Below the pieces are notes generated by a model. That model saw only the letters and a program-made list of their open reading frames with translations, searched no databases and was not told the origin of the DNA. Source: Deltaproteobacteria bacterium CG_4_9_14_3_um_filter_63_12 (GTDB taxonomy: Bacteria > Myxococcota_A > Bradymonadia > UBA4248 > UM-FILTER-63-12). Taken from it: a DNA stretch of 34,809 nt. A program made the position numbers and the translations under genes. Below, piece by piece: positions 952 to 34,718 of the stretch. The DNA lies in the NCBI GenBank assembly GCA_002789955.1, contig PFUG01000658.1:1403-36211 (forward strand), read 5' to 3'. Numbering within the stretch: the first letter of the stretch is position 1; every line of letters starts with the position of its first letter.

Positions 952-1645
952 GGAGTGGTCACGTTCTGGGTGGCGAGGCAAACCAAGCTTCGACGGCGTG
1001 ACCCTTTGGGCATGAGGGAGCCTCGATCGGATTTTCGCGCGCGACTCGGAACAAAGGCGGCTGTTCGGCCCCCCCTCGGTTGATGTCGGTCGCACCGACA
1101 CGCAAGACCTCGGGGCAGGGCTGCAGAGCGCGCTGGGCCTTACGGGGAGGAAGACTGGGCGCCGCTCGTCGACTTCGGCGGCGAAATCTCGACCGACGCA
1201 GACGTGGTGACAAGGTCTTGCTTGGCTTCGGCGCTCATCCCGCCGCCGTACTCGGTCGCAAACCTCACCTTGGCTCAAGCACGGCAGGAAACGTTCGCGT
1301 GGCGTGAGGATTCGAACGTGTGTCATACTCCAGGTGAACTCGAAGACGGGATGAACGCATGGATCTCTTCGATGAGTTTCTGGGTCTTGTGGGGCTTTCG
1401 GACGAGGGAGACGGCAGTGATTCGTAAACCGGTTGATATGTCGTCGGACGCAATAGACAAGAGGCTGCGCGAGCTGGCTCAGCTCTGCAAGCTCGGCATG
1501 TCGTTGAGAGGCGCCAAACGGGTGGGTACGGCCAAAGAGTTGCTGTGCAGCCCAGCGGTGGTCTCGGACGACAAGGACGCCAAACGTCCACAGTGACACC
1601 CTCGCAGCTTGTGCGTTTGTCCCCGCGGCCCGCAAAGGCAACCCC

Positions 1646-2845
1646 ATGATTTACCTCGACCACAACGCCACCACCCCCACCGCCGAGCCCGTCATCGAGG
1701 CCTGTGCGGCGGCCATGCGCATGCTCTCGGGCAACCCGTCGAGCGTGCACCTCGAGGGCCAGCGCGCGCGCCACGCCATCGAGCTGGCCCGCAAGCAGGT
1801 CGCCGACTTGGTGGGCTCCAATGCGCGACAGTGGGTCTTCTGCTCTGGCGCCACGGAAGCCAACCGCCTGGCTCTGGGCTCTTGGTCCCAGGCCCTCGAA
1901 AAACCCCACTTCATCAGCAGTCCCGCCGAGCACGCCTCGGTCGCCAATTGGCTGCTCGAGCTCGGCGAGTTCGACGCCAGCCGTGTGCATTGGCTGCCGG
2001 TGGACGCGCAGGGCCGCATCGCGGCCGAGTCCGTGGCGCAGTCGCTGGAGGCCTGCAAGGCCAAAAGTCATCCGACAGTGCTCGTGACGATGTTGGTGCA
2101 GTCGGAGCTGGGGAACCGCTACCCGGTGGCCGAATTCTCGCGGCTGGCGCGCCGCCATCGGGCCTACGTGCACTGCGACCTGACCCAGGCCGTGGGCCGC
2201 GTCGAGGTTGAGGTCGACGCCTTGGGCGCCGACACCGCCAGCTTTTCCGGACATAAATTTGGCGGGCCCAAGGGCGTGGGCGCCCTCTTCGTCCGCAAGG
2301 GCAGCCCCATCGACGCCAAGTTCGCCCTCAAGAGCCAGGAGCGCGGCTTGCGCCTGGGGACCGAAAACGTCCCGGGCATCGTCGGCCTGGGGCGCGCCTG
2401 TGTCCTGGCTCGCGGCGAGCGCTTGGCGGATTGGCGGCGCGTCGCCGGCCTGCGAGACCGCCTGCTGGCCGGGCTCCTCGCAGGCGTCCCTGGCGCAGAG
2501 CTGGTGGGGGACCCGCATTCCAATATCGGCAACACCTGCAGCGTCAGGTTCCCAGGCACCGAGGCGCAAGACCTGTTGATGGCCTTGGACCTGGCCGGCA
2601 TCGCCGTCGGCGCAGGCAGCGCCTGCGCCTCGGGCAGCTTGGGCGTAAGCCCAATTCTGGCGGCCATGGGCTTGAGTCCGGCGGAGGCGCGCTCGGTGGT
2701 CCGCTTCTCGACGGGCTGGGGCAACGACGAGGCCCAGATCGATCAGGCCCTGCGGGCGATCTCCGACGAAGTGGGGTACGTAAGACAGATTTCCAGGGGC
2801 GCAGCGCCCTCTGGACGCACCTCAAGAGTGAGGGAGGAGCTGTGA
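1646..2845 (+). CDS. Cysteine desulfurase (NifS/IscS family), probably dedicated to MnmA
   Basis: MIYLDHNATTPTAEPV start, PLP-Lys motif SFSGHKFGGPKGVGALF, catalytic Cys loop GSACASGS. Overlaps mnmA by GTGA. Confidence 0.95.
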   Translation: MIYLDHNATTPTAEPVIEACAAAMRMLSGNPSSVHLEGQRARHAIELARKQVADLVGSNARQWVFCSGATEANRLALGSWSQALEKPHFISSPAEHASVANWLLELGEFDASRVHWLPVDAQGRIAAESVAQSLEACKAKSHPTVLVTMLVQSELGNRYPVAEFSRLARRHRAYVHCDLTQAVGRVEVEVDALGADTASFSGHKFGGPKGVGALFVRKGSPIDAKFALKSQERGLRLGTENVPGIVGLGRACVLARGERLADWRRVAGLRDRLLAGLLAGVPGAELVGDPHSNIGNTCSVRFPGTEAQDLLMALDLAGIAVGAGSACASGSLGVSPILAAMGLSPAEARSVVRFSTGWGNDEAQIDQALRAISDEVGYVRQISRGAAPSGRTSRVREEL

Positions 2846-3936
2846 ACCCAGAGCCCGACAAAGGAGCCCGCGTCATCGTCGCCATGAGCGGCGGCGTGGA
2901 CTCGTCCGCGGTGGCCGCGCTCTTGGTGCAGCAGGGCTACGACGTCATCGGCGTGTCCATGCGCCTCTACTCGACGCGCTCGGTGGAGCGCTCGAAGAGT
3001 TGCTGTGCGCCCGACGATCTCTACGATGCGCGCGCCGTGTGCGCCACGCTGGGGATCCCGTTTTACGTCAGCGACGAGGAGTCGCTGTTTCGCGAGCAAG
3101 TCATCGAGCCGTTCATCGCCGAGTATCTGCGCGGCCGCACGCCGAATCCTTGCGTCGCCTGTAACGACCACCTGAAGTTCGACCTGCTGCTGCGCAAGTC
3201 TAGGGCGCTGCGGGCCGCCTTCTTGGCCACGGGCCACTACGCCCGCGTCGAAGAAATCGACCAGGAATGGGCGCTGCTCAAGGGCAAGGACTCGCGCAAA
3301 GATCAAAGTTACTTTTTGTTTGGTCTGGCGCGCGAGAATCTTCGATTTATTCGATTCCCGCTGGGCCTGATGACCAAGGACGAGGTCCGAGCGCTCGCCG
3401 ATTCGGCGGGACTGTCCACGGCGGAGAAAGCCGAGAGCCAGGAGATCTGCTTCGTGAACGGCGACTACGCCGACCTCATCGAGCAGAGCGTCGACGCCTC
3501 CCAGCTCAAGGGCGGCCGCTTCGTGCTCGAAGATGGGACCGACCTGGGCCCGCATCAGGGCATCCACCGCTACACCATCGGGCAGCGGCGCGGGCTGGGC
3601 ATTGCCACGGCCAACCCGCTCTACGTCAAGTCCATCGACCCCGATGGCGGCGACGTGGTGTTGGGCGATCGAGAGTCGCTGGCCTGCGCTGGGCTGACCG
3701 CCGGACGCAGCAATTGGCTGGTCGACGTCGAGCTCAATGTCCCCTTCGAGGCGCAGGTCAAGGTGCGCTACCGCAGCGAGCCCTTCGCCATGACGGTCAC
3801 GCCGTTGGAGCGCGACCGCTTCGAGGCGCGCTTCGTCGATTCTGGAAGCGCCGTGACACCAGGCCAAGCGGCGGTCATATATAGCGGCGACAGAGTGCTG
3901 GGCGGCGGTTGGATCGAGAAGCCGCTCAAAGGATGA
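2842..3936 (+). CDS. mnmA: tRNA-specific 2-thiouridylase MnmA
   Basis: P-loop AMSGGVDSSAVAALL, GRTPNPCVACN, SQEICFVNGDY, GQRRGLGI. The listed ORF begins earlier; the GTG at 2842 overlaps the upstream stop (GTGA). Confidence 0.95.
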   Translation: MNPEPDKGARVIVAMSGGVDSSAVAALLVQQGYDVIGVSMRLYSTRSVERSKSCCAPDDLYDARAVCATLGIPFYVSDEESLFREQVIEPFIAEYLRGRTPNPCVACNDHLKFDLLLRKSRALRAAFLATGHYARVEEIDQEWALLKGKDSRKDQSYFLFGLARENLRFIRFPLGLMTKDEVRALADSAGLSTAEKAESQEICFVNGDYADLIEQSVDASQLKGGRFVLEDGTDLGPHQGIHRYTIGQRRGLGIATANPLYVKSIDPDGGDVVLGDRESLACAGLTAGRSNWLVDVELNVPFEAQVKVRYRSEPFAMTVTPLERDRFEARFVDSGSAVTPGQAAVIYSGDRVLGGGWIEKPLKG

Positions 3937-3939
3937 AGG

Positions 3940-4641
3940 ATGAATTGGTCGAAGCTGGAAGGTGTCTTGGGCTATACGTTCAACAACCGTGACCTCTTGG
4001 TGCGGGCGTTGACGCACCGCTCGTACGTCAACGAGTCGAACGACACGGACAAGGACAACCAGCGCCTGGAGTTTCTCGGAGACGCCGTACTGGGCTTGGT
4101 GATCACCGAGCTGTTGTTCGCCCGTCACCCGGACTACACCGAGGGCGCGCTGTCCAAGTTGAAGTCGCAGCTGGTCTGTGAGCCGGCGCTGGCGACCATC
4201 GCGGCGCGCATCGAGCTCGGGAGCTACCTGCGGCTCGGCAAGGGCGAAGAGAGCAGCGGCGGGCGGGAGAAGGCCTCCGTTCTCGCTGACGCCTACGAGG
4301 CCCTGCTCGCCGCCGTCCATCTCGACGGAGGCTTCGAGTCCGCGCGCCGGTTGATCCGCAGCCAACACGCTGACCCCCTCCAGGGAATCACCTCGCCGTC
4401 CACCGGCTTGGACGCCAAGTCGAAGTTGCAAGAGCACCTGCAGCGCGACTCCGGAGTCCGTCCCACCTACCACATCCTCGAGGCCACTGGCCCGCACCAC
4501 GCGCGGCGCTTCTCCGTCTCGGTTTCCTTGGGTGAGGAGGTCTTGGGGGTGGGCGAGGGGAGCAGCAAGAAGGAAGCCCAGCAGGCGGCTGCTTTCGCGG
4601 CACTCCACGCGCTCAACGAGGCGGAGTCGACTGACGATTGA
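3940..4641 (+). CDS. rnc: Ribonuclease III
   Basis: LTHRSYVNE, NQRLEFLGDAVLGLVITELLF, LADAYEALLAAVHLDGG, C-terminal dsRBD with SKKEAQQAAAFAAL. Starts 3 nt after the mnmA stop. Confidence 0.95.
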   Translation: MNWSKLEGVLGYTFNNRDLLVRALTHRSYVNESNDTDKDNQRLEFLGDAVLGLVITELLFARHPDYTEGALSKLKSQLVCEPALATIAARIELGSYLRLGKGEESSGGREKASVLADAYEALLAAVHLDGGFESARRLIRSQHADPLQGITSPSTGLDAKSKLQEHLQRDSGVRPTYHILEATGPHHARRFSVSVSLGEEVLGVGEGSSKKEAQQAAAFAALHALNEAESTDD

Positions 4642-4746
4642 CACCCATTGGGTGCAGAACTATCTTCCGCCGCGCGCTCGAAGCCGGGTCGACGTCGGCA
4701 TTTTGCCGCGTTCTCCGACCTCTGTAGAGCGCCTCGAGGGACGACC

Positions 4747-5040
4747 ATGATCGCATTGGGTTCTGAAACACTTGCCGGAGTCGCGATGTTCGGACTCGGG
4801 ACCACTGAGCTCGTCATCATCGCCATCGTGGTCATCTTGCTCTTCGGCGCCAAGCGCATCCCTGACCTTGGCAGGTCTGTCGGGTTGGGCATCAGCAACT
4901 TCAAAAAGGGCCTCAAGAAAGCCGAAGAAGAAGACGACAACGAGGACGACGACGACGAGAAGCCCAAGTCTCTCGAAGGCAAGTCGGTGAGTGACGTCCC
5001 AGTGCTCGAGGCTAAGAAGAAGACCAAGACCAAGGTTTAG
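4747..5040 (+). CDS. tatA: Sec-independent translocase TatA/E-type protein
   Basis: MFGLGTTELVIIAIVVILLFGAKRIPDLGRSVGLGISNFKKGLKKAEEE. The start could also be ATG 4786. Confidence 0.9.
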   Translation: MIALGSETLAGVAMFGLGTTELVIIAIVVILLFGAKRIPDLGRSVGLGISNFKKGLKKAEEEDDNEDDDDEKPKSLEGKSVSDVPVLEAKKKTKTKV

Positions 5041-5044
5041 TCCC

Positions 5045-5306
5045 GCGTCTGACTGACGTCGACGGGGATCCTCAATCGTCCGGACGAGCTCCGACAACCG
5101 ACGGCCTGAGACCGAACCAGCGTCTGACTGACGTCGACGGCGATCCTCAATCGTCGGACTGAGTCTGGCCTCCGGCACCGTCTAGGCCTAAGGCCTGAGG
5201 CCGAACCGGCGTCTGCTGACGCCGGACTGGGGCCCTCAATCGGATTTCGCGCGCGACTCGGACTGAATCCGGCATCCGACAGCGGCTAGGCCTGAGGCCG
5301 AACCCG
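5045..5306. repeat. Degenerate tandem repeat array (about 75-90 nt units)
   Basis: GCGTCTGACTGACGTCGACGGNGATCCTCAATCGTC at 5045 and 5120, a diverged copy at 5209. Units close with GGCCTGAGRCCGAACC (5103, 5193, 5289). Confidence 0.75.
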
Positions 5307-5399
5307 CCATTCACGGTGTCCAATACTTGTTGAGCCCCCGCAAAAAAAGAGCGACACCTCTTCGCTCCTCGATGACATAGGACTCTGAGGGCATCCAGT

Positions 5400-5419
5400 G
5401 GGCGCAGCGCGCTGCGCCC
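5400..5419. repeat. Perfect 20-bp palindrome GGGCGCAGCGCGCTGCGCCC
   Basis: Self-complementary; a near-identical motif (GGGCGCAGC-GT-GCTGCGCCC) occurs at 28759-28778. Confidence 0.7.
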
Positions 5420-5461
5420 CTACGCCCCTTTCTGTCCGCCCCCATTTTCTCGGAGTGTTCG

Positions 5462-6112
5462 ATGAACCCTCTCGAAACGGACTCGACCGCTGCTCTCGGA
5501 CGCCTCTTGGCGCGCCTGAAAGACGGCGACGCCGAGGCCCTGACCCCCTTCTACGAGCGCTTCGTCGACGGGCTCTACGCCTTTGTTTTCTACCGTGTCG
5601 GCAAGAATCCGACGCTGGCCGAGGACGTCGTGCAGGAGACCTTCCTCTACGCCCTCGACCACCTCGAGCTCTACGACCCCAACAAGGGCTCCCCCGCCAC
5701 CTGGTTGAGCCTGAGCTCGAAGAACTTCATCCGCAAGCACCTCAAACTCCAACAGAGGAGCGAGCAGCTCATGGAGCTTTGGGAACGCATCGACGAGCGG
5801 CTCGTCGAGGCCCTAGCCGCGGTCGACAGCGCGCCACTCAGCGACGAGCTGATCGAGCGCACCGAGACGCGCGAGCTGGTGAACATGACCATCGCGCACC
5901 TGCCGGAGAGCTACCGGCGCGCGCTGAACGGCAAGTACGTCGAGGGCGAGTCGCTGGCCGAGCTGGCCGAGCAGCTCGAGCTCTCCGAGAGCGCGACCAA
6001 GTCGTTGCTGGCCCGCGCCCGCGGCGCCTTCCGCGCCACCTTCCAGACCCTCAGCCAGGCCCTCTTCGGCCCGCAGCTCGGGCGCTCCGGCGCCGAGGAG
6101 TCGTCACGATGA
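5462..6112 (+). CDS. ECF-type RNA polymerase sigma-70 family sigma factor
   Basis: Region 2: VGKNPTLAEDVVQETFLYALDHLELYDPNKGSPATWL. Region 4: HLPESYRRALNGKYVEGESLAELAEQLELSESATKSLLARARGAFR. Confidence 0.9.
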   Translation: MNPLETDSTAALGRLLARLKDGDAEALTPFYERFVDGLYAFVFYRVGKNPTLAEDVVQETFLYALDHLELYDPNKGSPATWLSLSSKNFIRKHLKLQQRSEQLMELWERIDERLVEALAAVDSAPLSDELIERTETRELVNMTIAHLPESYRRALNGKYVEGESLAELAEQLELSESATKSLLARARGAFRATFQTLSQALFGPQLGRSGAEESSR

Positions 6113-12304: not shown

Positions 12305-13213
12305 TCACGGGATTTTGCGCAATCGCATCTGGTTCGGCTCCCCCCTGATGACGTCGATGAGCTGGTGACGGGCTCCGGCCTCGAGCTCGCGGTGCAGCGC
12401 GCGGATGGCGTCGCTGTCTTCGGCGTTCATGAGGCGGTCGTGGTCGAGCGCGGGCTTTTGCCACCCTTCGCTGAGGATGGCCTCGAGGCGCGCGTCGTCG
12501 ACCTCGAGGAGGTAGGAGAAGGTCTCCTCATGGGTGTGCGCTGGGGTATACGCCGAGAGCAGCTCGAGCTCACCGAGGGTGAGGTGGATGCTCAGGCTGG
12601 TGCTGTCCCACTGGGTGGCTCCATATTGCTTGCGCACCTTGGCGCATTTCATCCCCAGCAGCTTGGTCAGCGTGCCGAGGCCAGGAAGGGCGTCGTCGCC
12701 GAGGACGAGGTTGGCGGACGAGAGGTTGTGTCCGAACCAAGCCCCGGGCTCGACGCAGGGGATGGCGACCCACATGGAGAGGGGTACGAAGCGATCGCGC
12801 GTAGGCACGCTGCTGGCTCGCTTCGAGCCAGCTCGGTGCCGAGTAGCGCGCGAATCCCAATCGAGGTCGTCGTCGCCAACGTGGTACCGAACGCGGACCT
12901 CGGGCGAAAGCTCAGAGGCCCGCTTGCCAAAGCCGAACACCATGCCCGGGAACTCACCGCAGTCGAAGAGAACCCACCGTGGCATGAGCATCTCCTGGGG
13001 GCCGAAGGCAAAGCTGTCCAGGTGATGCAACCCGTTCACGACGTCGCGCGACTCGAGCGATGTGGCGGTGTAGCGCCGCTCCACGGGGATCTCGACTCCC
13101 ATTGGGGCCATGTCGAGATAGGGCCAGTTGGCCGTGTAGCTGATGACGTAGGGCGTACAGGTGTCGAGGATTTTTCGGTAGCGTGCCGCTACGTCTTTGG
13201 CAGCGATGGTCAT
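12305..13213 (-). CDS. Hypothetical protein containing an in-frame palindromic repeat insertion
   Basis: MTIAAKDVAARYRKILDTCTPYVISYTANWPYLDMAPMGVEIPVERRYTATSLESRDVVNGLHH... No family recognised. Confidence 0.7.
   Translation of the reverse strand: MTIAAKDVAARYRKILDTCTPYVISYTANWPYLDMAPMGVEIPVERRYTATSLESRDVVNGLHHLDSFAFGPQEMLMPRWVLFDCGEFPGMVFGFGKRASELSPEVRVRYHVGDDDLDWDSRATRHRAGSKRASSVPTRDRFVPLSMWVAIPCVEPGAWFGHNLSSANLVLGDDALPGLGTLTKLLGMKCAKVRKQYGATQWDSTSLSIHLTLGELELLSAYTPAHTHEETFSYLLEVDDARLEAILSEGWQKPALDHDRLMNAEDSDAIRALHRELEAGARHQLIDVIRGEPNQMRLRKIP
12793..12861 (-). repeat. Dispersed palindromic repeat, copy E (69 nt), inside the 12305-13213 CDS
   Basis: Reverse complement ATTGGGATTCGCGCGCTACTCGGCACCGAGCTGGCTCGAAGCGAGCCAGCAGCGTGCCTACGCGCGATC; aligns with copies C, D and F. 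Confidence 0.85.
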
Positions 13214-14407: not shown

Positions 14408-14475
14408 ATCGGATTTCGCGCACGCTCGGAACAGAGGTGGCTCGAAGCAAGTCACCTCGCGTCCCTACGCTGCGC
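14408..14475 (+). repeat. Dispersed palindromic repeat, copy C
   Basis: ATCGGATTTCGCGCACGCTCGGAACAGAGGTGGCTCGAAGCAAGTCACCTCGCGTCCCTACGCTGCGC. Confidence 0.85.
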
Positions 14476-14512: not shown

Positions 14513-14570
14513 GGCGCGCTTCTCGGAACAGAGGTGGCTGGAAGCGAGCCGCTCGCATCCCTACGCGATC
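14513..14570 (+). repeat. Dispersed palindromic repeat, copy D (5' end degraded)
   Basis: GGCGCGCTTCTCGGAACAGAGGTGGCTGGAAGCGAGCCGCTCGCATCCCTACGCGATC. Confidence 0.8.
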
Positions 14571-17960: not shown

Positions 17961-18032
17961 GATCGCGAGCGCAGGGACGTGAGGTGGCTCACTTCGAGCC
18001 ACCTCCGTTCCGAGAAGCGAGCGAAATCCAAT
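17961..18032 (-). repeat. Dispersed palindromic repeat, copy F
   Basis: Reverse complement ATTGGATTTCGCTCGCTTCTCGGAACGGAGGTGGCTCGAAGTGAGCCACCTCACGTCCCTGCGCTCGCGATC. Confidence 0.85.
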
Positions 18033-18073
18033 CGCAGCAGCTCTGTTCTTGAACGGCAGCGAGCGGGACTGGC

Positions 18074-33754: not shown

Positions 33755-34540
33755 ATGTCAAGCCGACGACGCAGTTTTGAGAATGCAGTGCTAATCAGTG
33801 TTTTCGCAGTGGTCTTGGGCCTCGGCTCGAGTGCGCTGGCGGCTGGCCCGGAGAAGGGCTTGGCGACGGCCCAAAGCGGCTCGGAGAAGGGCTTGGCGAC
33901 GGCCCAAAGCGGCTCGGCATCGAAGGCGAGCTCCTCGAAGACCTTCAAGCGCGCCGACAACAAGACCGTGAGCATCACTCGCCTCGATTCCAGCCCCACA
34001 CCCACGCGGCGCGGCCTTGACGCACAGGTCGCCACCGAGCTCTCCGACGAAGAGCTGCTCGAGATGCACGACGGCTCCTTCTACCTCGACGTCTGGAGTT
34101 CGGACACGGCCGAAGCGAACTTGGCGCTGCGTTTCGGCGGCGGCCACACCTACACTTTCCTGGCCGCAGGGACCGACCTGAGCGTCGCGGAGCCCGGCGA
34201 AGACCGCCGCTACGAGGTCGGCGCTGGCGCGGGCATCCGCGGCTTCATCGACGAGGCGTTCATCGACTTCGACCTCTCTCTGTACGTGCTTCTGGACCAA
34301 GGCGGTTCCCCGCTCGAGGCCGGCATGGCGAAGATTCGATTGGGTGTGGGCAGCCGCTTCTCGAGGTACTTCGCCGTCTCGGCAGGCATGACCGCGACGC
34401 TCTTTGGCGACCTCGACATTCCCACGCAGGACACCACGGTCGCGCACCCCACCTACGTGCAAGCCGTCACGTACCTCGACGTCGAGGCACCCCTGCGCTT
34501 GGCGCTGTGGCCCGGCTTCTATGCCGGCATGGAGTTCTGA
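33755..34540 (+). CDS. Exported hypothetical protein, possibly outer-membrane beta-barrel
   Basis: Signal peptide RRRSFENAVLISVFAVVLGLGSSALAA; alternating strands such as YEVGAGAGIRGFIDEAFIDFDLSLYVLL and ALWPGFYAGMEF with terminal Phe. RBS ggaggtcgaaggtc-ATG. Confidence 0.75.
   Translation: MSSRRRSFENAVLISVFAVVLGLGSSALAAGPEKGLATAQSGSEKGLATAQSGSASKASSSKTFKRADNKTVSITRLDSSPTPTRRGLDAQVATELSDEELLEMHDGSFYLDVWSSDTAEANLALRFGGGHTYTFLAAGTDLSVAEPGEDRRYEVGAGAGIRGFIDEAFIDFDLSLYVLLDQGGSPLEAGMAKIRLGVGSRFSRYFAVSAGMTATLFGDLDIPTQDTTVAHPTYVQAVTYLDVEAPLRLALWPGFYAGMEF
33851..33916 (+). repeat. Perfect 33-bp tandem duplication inside the 33755 CDS
   Basis: GAGAAGGGCTTGGCGACGGCCCAAAGCGGCTCG twice (EKGLATAQSGS x2). 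Confidence 0.95.
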
Positions 34541-34553
34541 GGTTCGAGCGGTC

Positions 34554-34718
34554 GAACCGCGTCCGGCCGCATGAACCCACCACGGCGAACCGCGTCCGGC
34601 CGCTCGAACCCACCACGGCGAACCGCGTCCGGCCGCTCGAACCCACGACGGCGAACCGCGTCCGGCCGCCCGAACCCACCACGGCGAACCGCGTCCGGCC
34701 GCCCGAACCCACGACCCC
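34554..34718. repeat. 33-bp minisatellite, five copies
   Basis: GAACCGCGTCCGGCCGCNYGAACCCACSACGGC at 34554, 34587, 34620, 34653 and 34686 with no spacers. Confidence 0.95.

Follow-up and report, generated by a model that had tools for sequence, protein, structure and literature searches.

In-frame palindromes have long been discussed chiefly for Rickettsia and Wolbachia, which have small, AT-rich, intracellular genomes. The elements concerned, the Rickettsia palindromic elements (RPEs) and the WPEs, lie in frame within ORFs, and their inserts fall in solvent-exposed areas of the proteins (PMC3767692, PMC10969869). RPEs measure 100–150 bp, are alphaproteobacterial and occupy the same sites in different species (PMC3767692). 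A second described class comprises the REPs, which are 20–40 bp long, have a terminal unpaired tag, and are associated with RAYT genes that often have flanking REPs. Some REPs are wholly within ORFs, where they add 20–30 residues, often in DNA repair genes and in several species, with examples in Opitutus terrae and Rickettsia conorii; the main text of that report is silent on Haliangium, Sorangium, Myxococcus and Deltaproteobacteria (PMC3733652). Third, there are short non-autonomous inverted repeats, some of which are within genes and in frame (PMC10969869, PMC2759123).

The window analyzed here is a stretch of 34,809 nucleotides (G000:C599, positions 1403–36211) from the draft genome of Deltaproteobacteria bacterium CG_4_9_14_3_um_filter_63_12. 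An initial annotation, made from the sequence alone, had noted in it a dispersed palindromic repeat inside a protein-coding gene and had compared it with the RPEs. The features of concern are as follows.

12305–13213, minus strand: host gene, encoding a conserved protein of unassigned function, 302 aa (homologue alignments, family searches, structure model)
12793–12863, plus strand: type A copy of the palindromic repeat, 71 nt, bounded by GATCG on the left and AATCG on the right
14408–14470, minus strand: repeat copy, model positions 9–72
14514–14567, minus strand: repeat copy, model positions 8–62
17961–18036, plus strand: full-length copy, type B, with the left end GCGAGCGCAGGGACG
1023–1062, minus strand: right-half repeat fragment, model positions 37–75
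5236–5262, minus strand: right-end repeat fragment, model positions 49–75 (E=0.001)

Beside the last of these fragments, at 5042–5155, lies a 39-bp direct repeat pair (GCGTCTGACTGACGTCGACGG), of which only parts recur elsewhere in the DNA examined.

The repeat copy in the window and its host gene

The ORF and repeat searches confirmed that the minus-strand ORF at 12305–13213 is stop-free over its full length and holds the repeat copy at 12793–12863 in frame. The translated insert, between VGDDD and RFVPLSMW, is LDWDSRATRHRAGSKRASSVPTRD, the peptide that had been annotated. The best match of the window repeat elsewhere in its own genome has an E of 6e-23 in the DNA search, and the RNA fold of the window copy has an energy of −42.8 kcal/mol (z=−3.3).

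Homologues of the host protein are found mostly in Myxococcota (Polyangiaceae, Nannocystaceae, Minicystis, Paraliomyxa), and the source genome is probably that of a myxobacterium-like bacterium. Searches with the protein returned no Pfam or NCBIfam family above cut-off and no PDB sequence match, and a weak GNAT-acetyltransferase-like fold match (E=3.7e-4, low TM-score) was obtained. The initial annotation had proposed several checks, namely an alignment of homologues, a count of the copies in coding sequences with their frames, and a prediction of whether the insert forms an exposed loop; homologues carrying the same residues would, it held, speak against an insertion. The peptide is lacking in all homologues checked. 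Thus, a single clean gap at the insert was found in 13/13 aligned homologues and also in 24/24 homologues with public records at 36–63% identity, two sets that overlap in part. In the DNA of a homologue from the same class (G017), the contiguous blocks 5076–5405 and 5406–5885 cover query residues 7–116 and 140–298, with no insert between them.

Since the assembly is a draft, one may ask whether the host gene is a degenerating pseudogene in which the repeat merely landed. However, residues 8 to 302 align in an unbroken frame with homologues (identity up to 63%), there is coding signal on either side of the insert, and the pattern recurs in Mfd, LarC and other genes (below); we therefore regard a pseudogene as extremely improbable.

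The structure model of the host protein has a mean pLDDT of 89.3. Within this model of one protein, insert residues 117–119 and 121–132 show pLDDT below 50, and the modelled insert loop runs between a helix (104–109) and a strand (142–144). The exposed-loop check thus came out as a predicted disordered loop.

At the insertion site the homologues have a loop of a few residues, the number of which differs between homologues. Because the length of the host loop itself varies, the alignment cannot separate insert lengths of 63, 66, 69 and 72 nt, all of which are whole codons; indeed, removing any of them from the window gene gave about the same fit to the homologues.

The repeat family, its hairpin and its unit length

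The genome searched is an 8.29 Mb draft of 689 contigs, about 94% complete. A DNA search of it with the repeat gave 354 candidates, the strong matches being 85–95% identical, and a 33-base core pattern with up to 3 mismatches had 218 matches genome-wide against 0 for the reversed-pattern control. The genome therefore holds at least 218 copies, far more than chance would give. None of the 56 further genomes from the class had the repeat, and no match was found in viral contigs. A covariance model run over 290 genomes of the phylum, the source genome included, found, outside that genome, only two isolated weak matches.

Two types of copies are present. Type A copies begin GATCGCGCGTAGGnACG and type B copies begin GATCGCGAGCGCAGGGACG, the latter being two bases longer at the left, while both share the right end GCGAAATCCGATCGA. 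Sequence conservation ends abruptly at each end of the repeat. Terminal inverted repeats, as in MITEs, are present in the form of a full-length hairpin, which base-pair covariation supports: counted for the named structure, covariation is 0.142, as compared with 0.088 for shuffled alignments and 0.02–0.04 when the pairing partners are slid. Compensatory pairs are clear, for example at columns 24/42 (C-G in 25 copies, G-C in 21) and 16/51. From the mixed-subtype alignment RNAalifold recovered no more than 10 pairs; the probable cause is that the left ends of the two types do not line up. In the supported hairpin, the tetranucleotide GTAG is between two helices, inside the longer stem and at no unpaired end.

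Unit length can be read from copies that lie head to tail. In 9/9 exact head-to-tail pairs, the second copy begins 5 bp before the end of the first, such that the two share exactly 5 bp (GATCG or its variant); the value is 3 instead of 5 in two pairs in which the second copy is of type B and begins two bases earlier. As tandem copies share one GATCG, the unit is the element length minus 5, which is 66 nt for the window copy. Independent support for this length is provided by the copy in a tricorn-type protease gene (L169), where removal of 66 nt gives VRPLWIAERIYFVSD, to be compared with VRPMWIGERVYFLSD in a relative, with a gapless junction. For the window, therefore, the insert would most likely be a unit of about 66 nt (e.g., 12798–12863) that adds 22 codons to the minus-strand gene. 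The initial annotation had put it at 69 nt, or 23 codons. Its whole-codon character stands, whereas the length is probably to be revised as above, given the GATCG shared by all nine pairs.

The flanks offer little further guidance: comparing them for identity gave no convincing signal of a target-site duplication beyond GATCG, with a slight excess at most in that register. Nested or paired copies are common, as 15 neighboring pairs less than 200 bp apart, mostly head to tail, occur among the 158 copies counted below. Loci with nested or paired copies include L107, L119, L167 and L179. In most REP families, by contrast, head-to-tail pairs are rare.

Copies inside genes

Copies were counted in 0.95 Mb of the genome's own sequence, where 158 have E below 1e-3. 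The gene models used are our own three-periodic Markov/Viterbi calls with the element masked. By these models 97 copies are intergenic, 20 are at gene edges and 41 are inside genes, many of the 41 being near N-termini, where the gene start is uncertain. In-gene copies are strongly depleted: they make up 26% of the copies, while 83% of the DNA is coding. In each of the 41 the frame ahead of the copy continues unshifted behind it, and they read open throughout, which answers the second check proposed by the initial annotation.

Length offers an independent test, because the gene model takes no account of element length. Of the 31 measurable in-gene copies, 27 have an inferred inserted length divisible by 3, against 34 of the 79 copies between genes (p=1.7e-5); type B was placed in register by its two extra left-end bases. 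The same holds for copies separated from the gene start by 40 codons or more and from the gene end by 20 or more (15/17, p=6e-4), and for type A alone (12/14 in genes versus 28/69 between genes, p=0.002).

These two properties bear on whether the insert is removed or skipped, by RNA-level splicing, translational bypass or protein splicing, to leave a mature protein without the extra residues. The strong mRNA hairpin recalls bypass and splicing elements. However, such removal would place no constraint on divisibility by 3 or on stop codons, and yet both constraints are seen; moreover, an Rfam search at the window site gave no match, and 22 residues are far below the size of an intein. Removal or skipping is, in our judgment, very unlikely. 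The length and the freedom from stops argue instead that the insert is translated, and we infer that the window copy adds about 22 residues in a disordered loop.

The antisense orientation is more frequent than the sense orientation among in-gene copies (27 versus 11). This excess is expected from freedom from stops alone (p=0.40 against stop avoidance alone), as intergenic copies are open in 81–88% of cases in each antisense frame and in 37–62% in each sense frame. All six combinations of frame and orientation are used, giving unrelated peptides.

This last point matters for the possibility that the repeat has been domesticated, with the Arg/Ser/Ala-rich peptide or the mRNA hairpin kept as useful, for example in regulation or protein evolution. 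The compensatory changes that keep the hairpin, and the in-gene copies that are open throughout, are what one would expect of it. On the other hand, the different frames and both orientations yield unrelated peptides, in-gene copies are strongly depleted, and the covariation can stem from the needs of mobility rather than those of the host, which makes domestication improbable. The initial annotation had left the choice between a selfish and a peptide-generating element. Since all six frames are used, tolerance of a selfish insert fits better than selection for one peptide, and the peptide-generating alternative is not borne out.

The host genes in this genome include those for LarC, Mfd, a tricorn-type protease, a histidine kinase, a U32 peptidase, a Ser/Thr kinase and a GATase/SIS protein. 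The LarC-type nickel insertion protein has two tandem copies at the junction of its two parts; its Pfam match covers 427 aa, corresponding to 374 profile positions, and it has extra residues relative to the solved LarC 12bi. In the histidine kinase, two copies are within HATPase_c, which takes 152 residues for 106 profile positions. The sites in Mfd and the U32 peptidase are in variable stretches, where no clean gapless join was found and the gap is less exact. The copy in Mfd, the transcription-repair coupling factor (L133, G000:C324), is of type B. Together with the REPs in repair genes of other species, this host may hint at a bias in the class of host genes.

Proposed mobility and relation to described systems

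Our proposal is a mobile hairpin, non-autonomous and with no sense of frame, of whose copies selection keeps those that are in frame, stop-free and located in exposed loops; we put the probability of this reading at roughly 85%. It is built on what the sequences display, namely the family itself, the covariation of the hairpin, the insertion relative to homologues, the preserved frame and the 5 bp shared by tandem copies, from which we infer that the element moves in trans, that GATCG guides its insertion, that the insert is translated in the cell and that the added peptide is neutral. Thus, a hairpin-forming element of about 66–72 bp would spread through this lineage by inserting at GATCG-like sites, blind to the reading frame. 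Its right end would recreate GATCG, so that fresh copies could enter existing ones in head-to-tail order, and nested arrays would arise for this reason. Most insertions into genes would be lost through selection against broken genes. The survivors would be those with a unit length that is a multiple of 3, with no stop, and with a position in an exposed loop, a linker or a terminus. The copy at 12793–12863 would be one such survivor, read as about 22 added residues in a disordered loop.

What would mobilize such an element bears on whether it is simply one more REP family, of the ordinary GTAG type, moved by a resident RAYT transposase. It shares with intragenic GTAG/CGTC-tagged REPs that it is a high-copy palindrome within ORFs, with Mfd as a host here; GTAG is near one end, the genome has three Y1/RAYT-like (Y1_Tnp) genes, and REPs within ORFs are already known. 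The differences are that GTAG is internal to a longer stem instead of at an unpaired end, that the unit is 66–72 bp and not 20–40, and that none of the three Y1_Tnp loci is flanked by a copy, the nearest copy being about 4 kb off on one contig. The missing flank is nevertheless compatible with mobilization by a RAYT, because some RAYT genes have unrelated repeats as flanks (PMC3733652). We consider an ordinary REP family rather unlikely. A Y1/RAYT-like transposase domain was also seen in frame within a long ORF at 1589–5761 (plus strand) of L186 (G000:C220). The flanks of this ORF match the BREX methyltransferase PglX (residues 533–1389 on PglX 272–1121), as if a mobile-element domain had entered PglX with the frame unbroken.

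Short non-autonomous inverted repeats within genes and in frame are likewise similar to the present hairpin. They may differ from it: no flanking duplication past GATCG was detected here, and the half-copies in the 0.95 Mb revealed neither a long autonomous version of the repeat nor a parent insertion sequence sharing its ends.

The comparison with RPEs made by the initial annotation, of an in-frame insert of their kind in an unrelated lineage, is supported by the homologue gap, the frame-kept copies and the predicted loop. As with RPEs and WPEs, dispersed palindromes lie in frame within ORFs whose protein family is still recognizable (PMC3767692, PMC10969869), and copies occur in several unrelated genes of one genome. 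Unlike RPEs, the present repeat is 66–72 bp long, GC-rich, observed in a single genome and arranged in head-to-tail arrays that share GATCG. It differs from the RPE families in size, base composition and lineage, and we claim no sequence relation to them. The parallel also has more precedent than had been implied, because wholly intragenic REPs have been reported in several non-rickettsial species (PMC3733652). By analogy, then, the repeat appears to work like RPEs and intragenic REPs, yet we would class it as a separate family of a known kind.

More tentatively, and at somewhat less than even odds, protein-coding palindromes may have arisen once more, independently, in Myxococcota, through a GATCG-directed hairpin that supplies in-frame peptides to dozens of proteins in a single lineage, among them proteins of DNA repair and cofactor assembly. 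The outcome known from intracellular genomes is met here in a genome that is large, GC-rich and from another phylum, and with a frame filter, the multiple of 3 seen in genes but not between them, that is measurable. This points to a more general, and quantifiable, tolerance of random peptides inserted in frame. The copies could also serve as natural insertion-scanning data, in which loops of Mfd, LarC and kinases would have accepted about 22 foreign residues.

Near the end of the window, 33-bp tandem repeats were observed at 34553–34712 (4.8 copies) and 33845–33917 (2.2 copies); their period is a whole number of codons.
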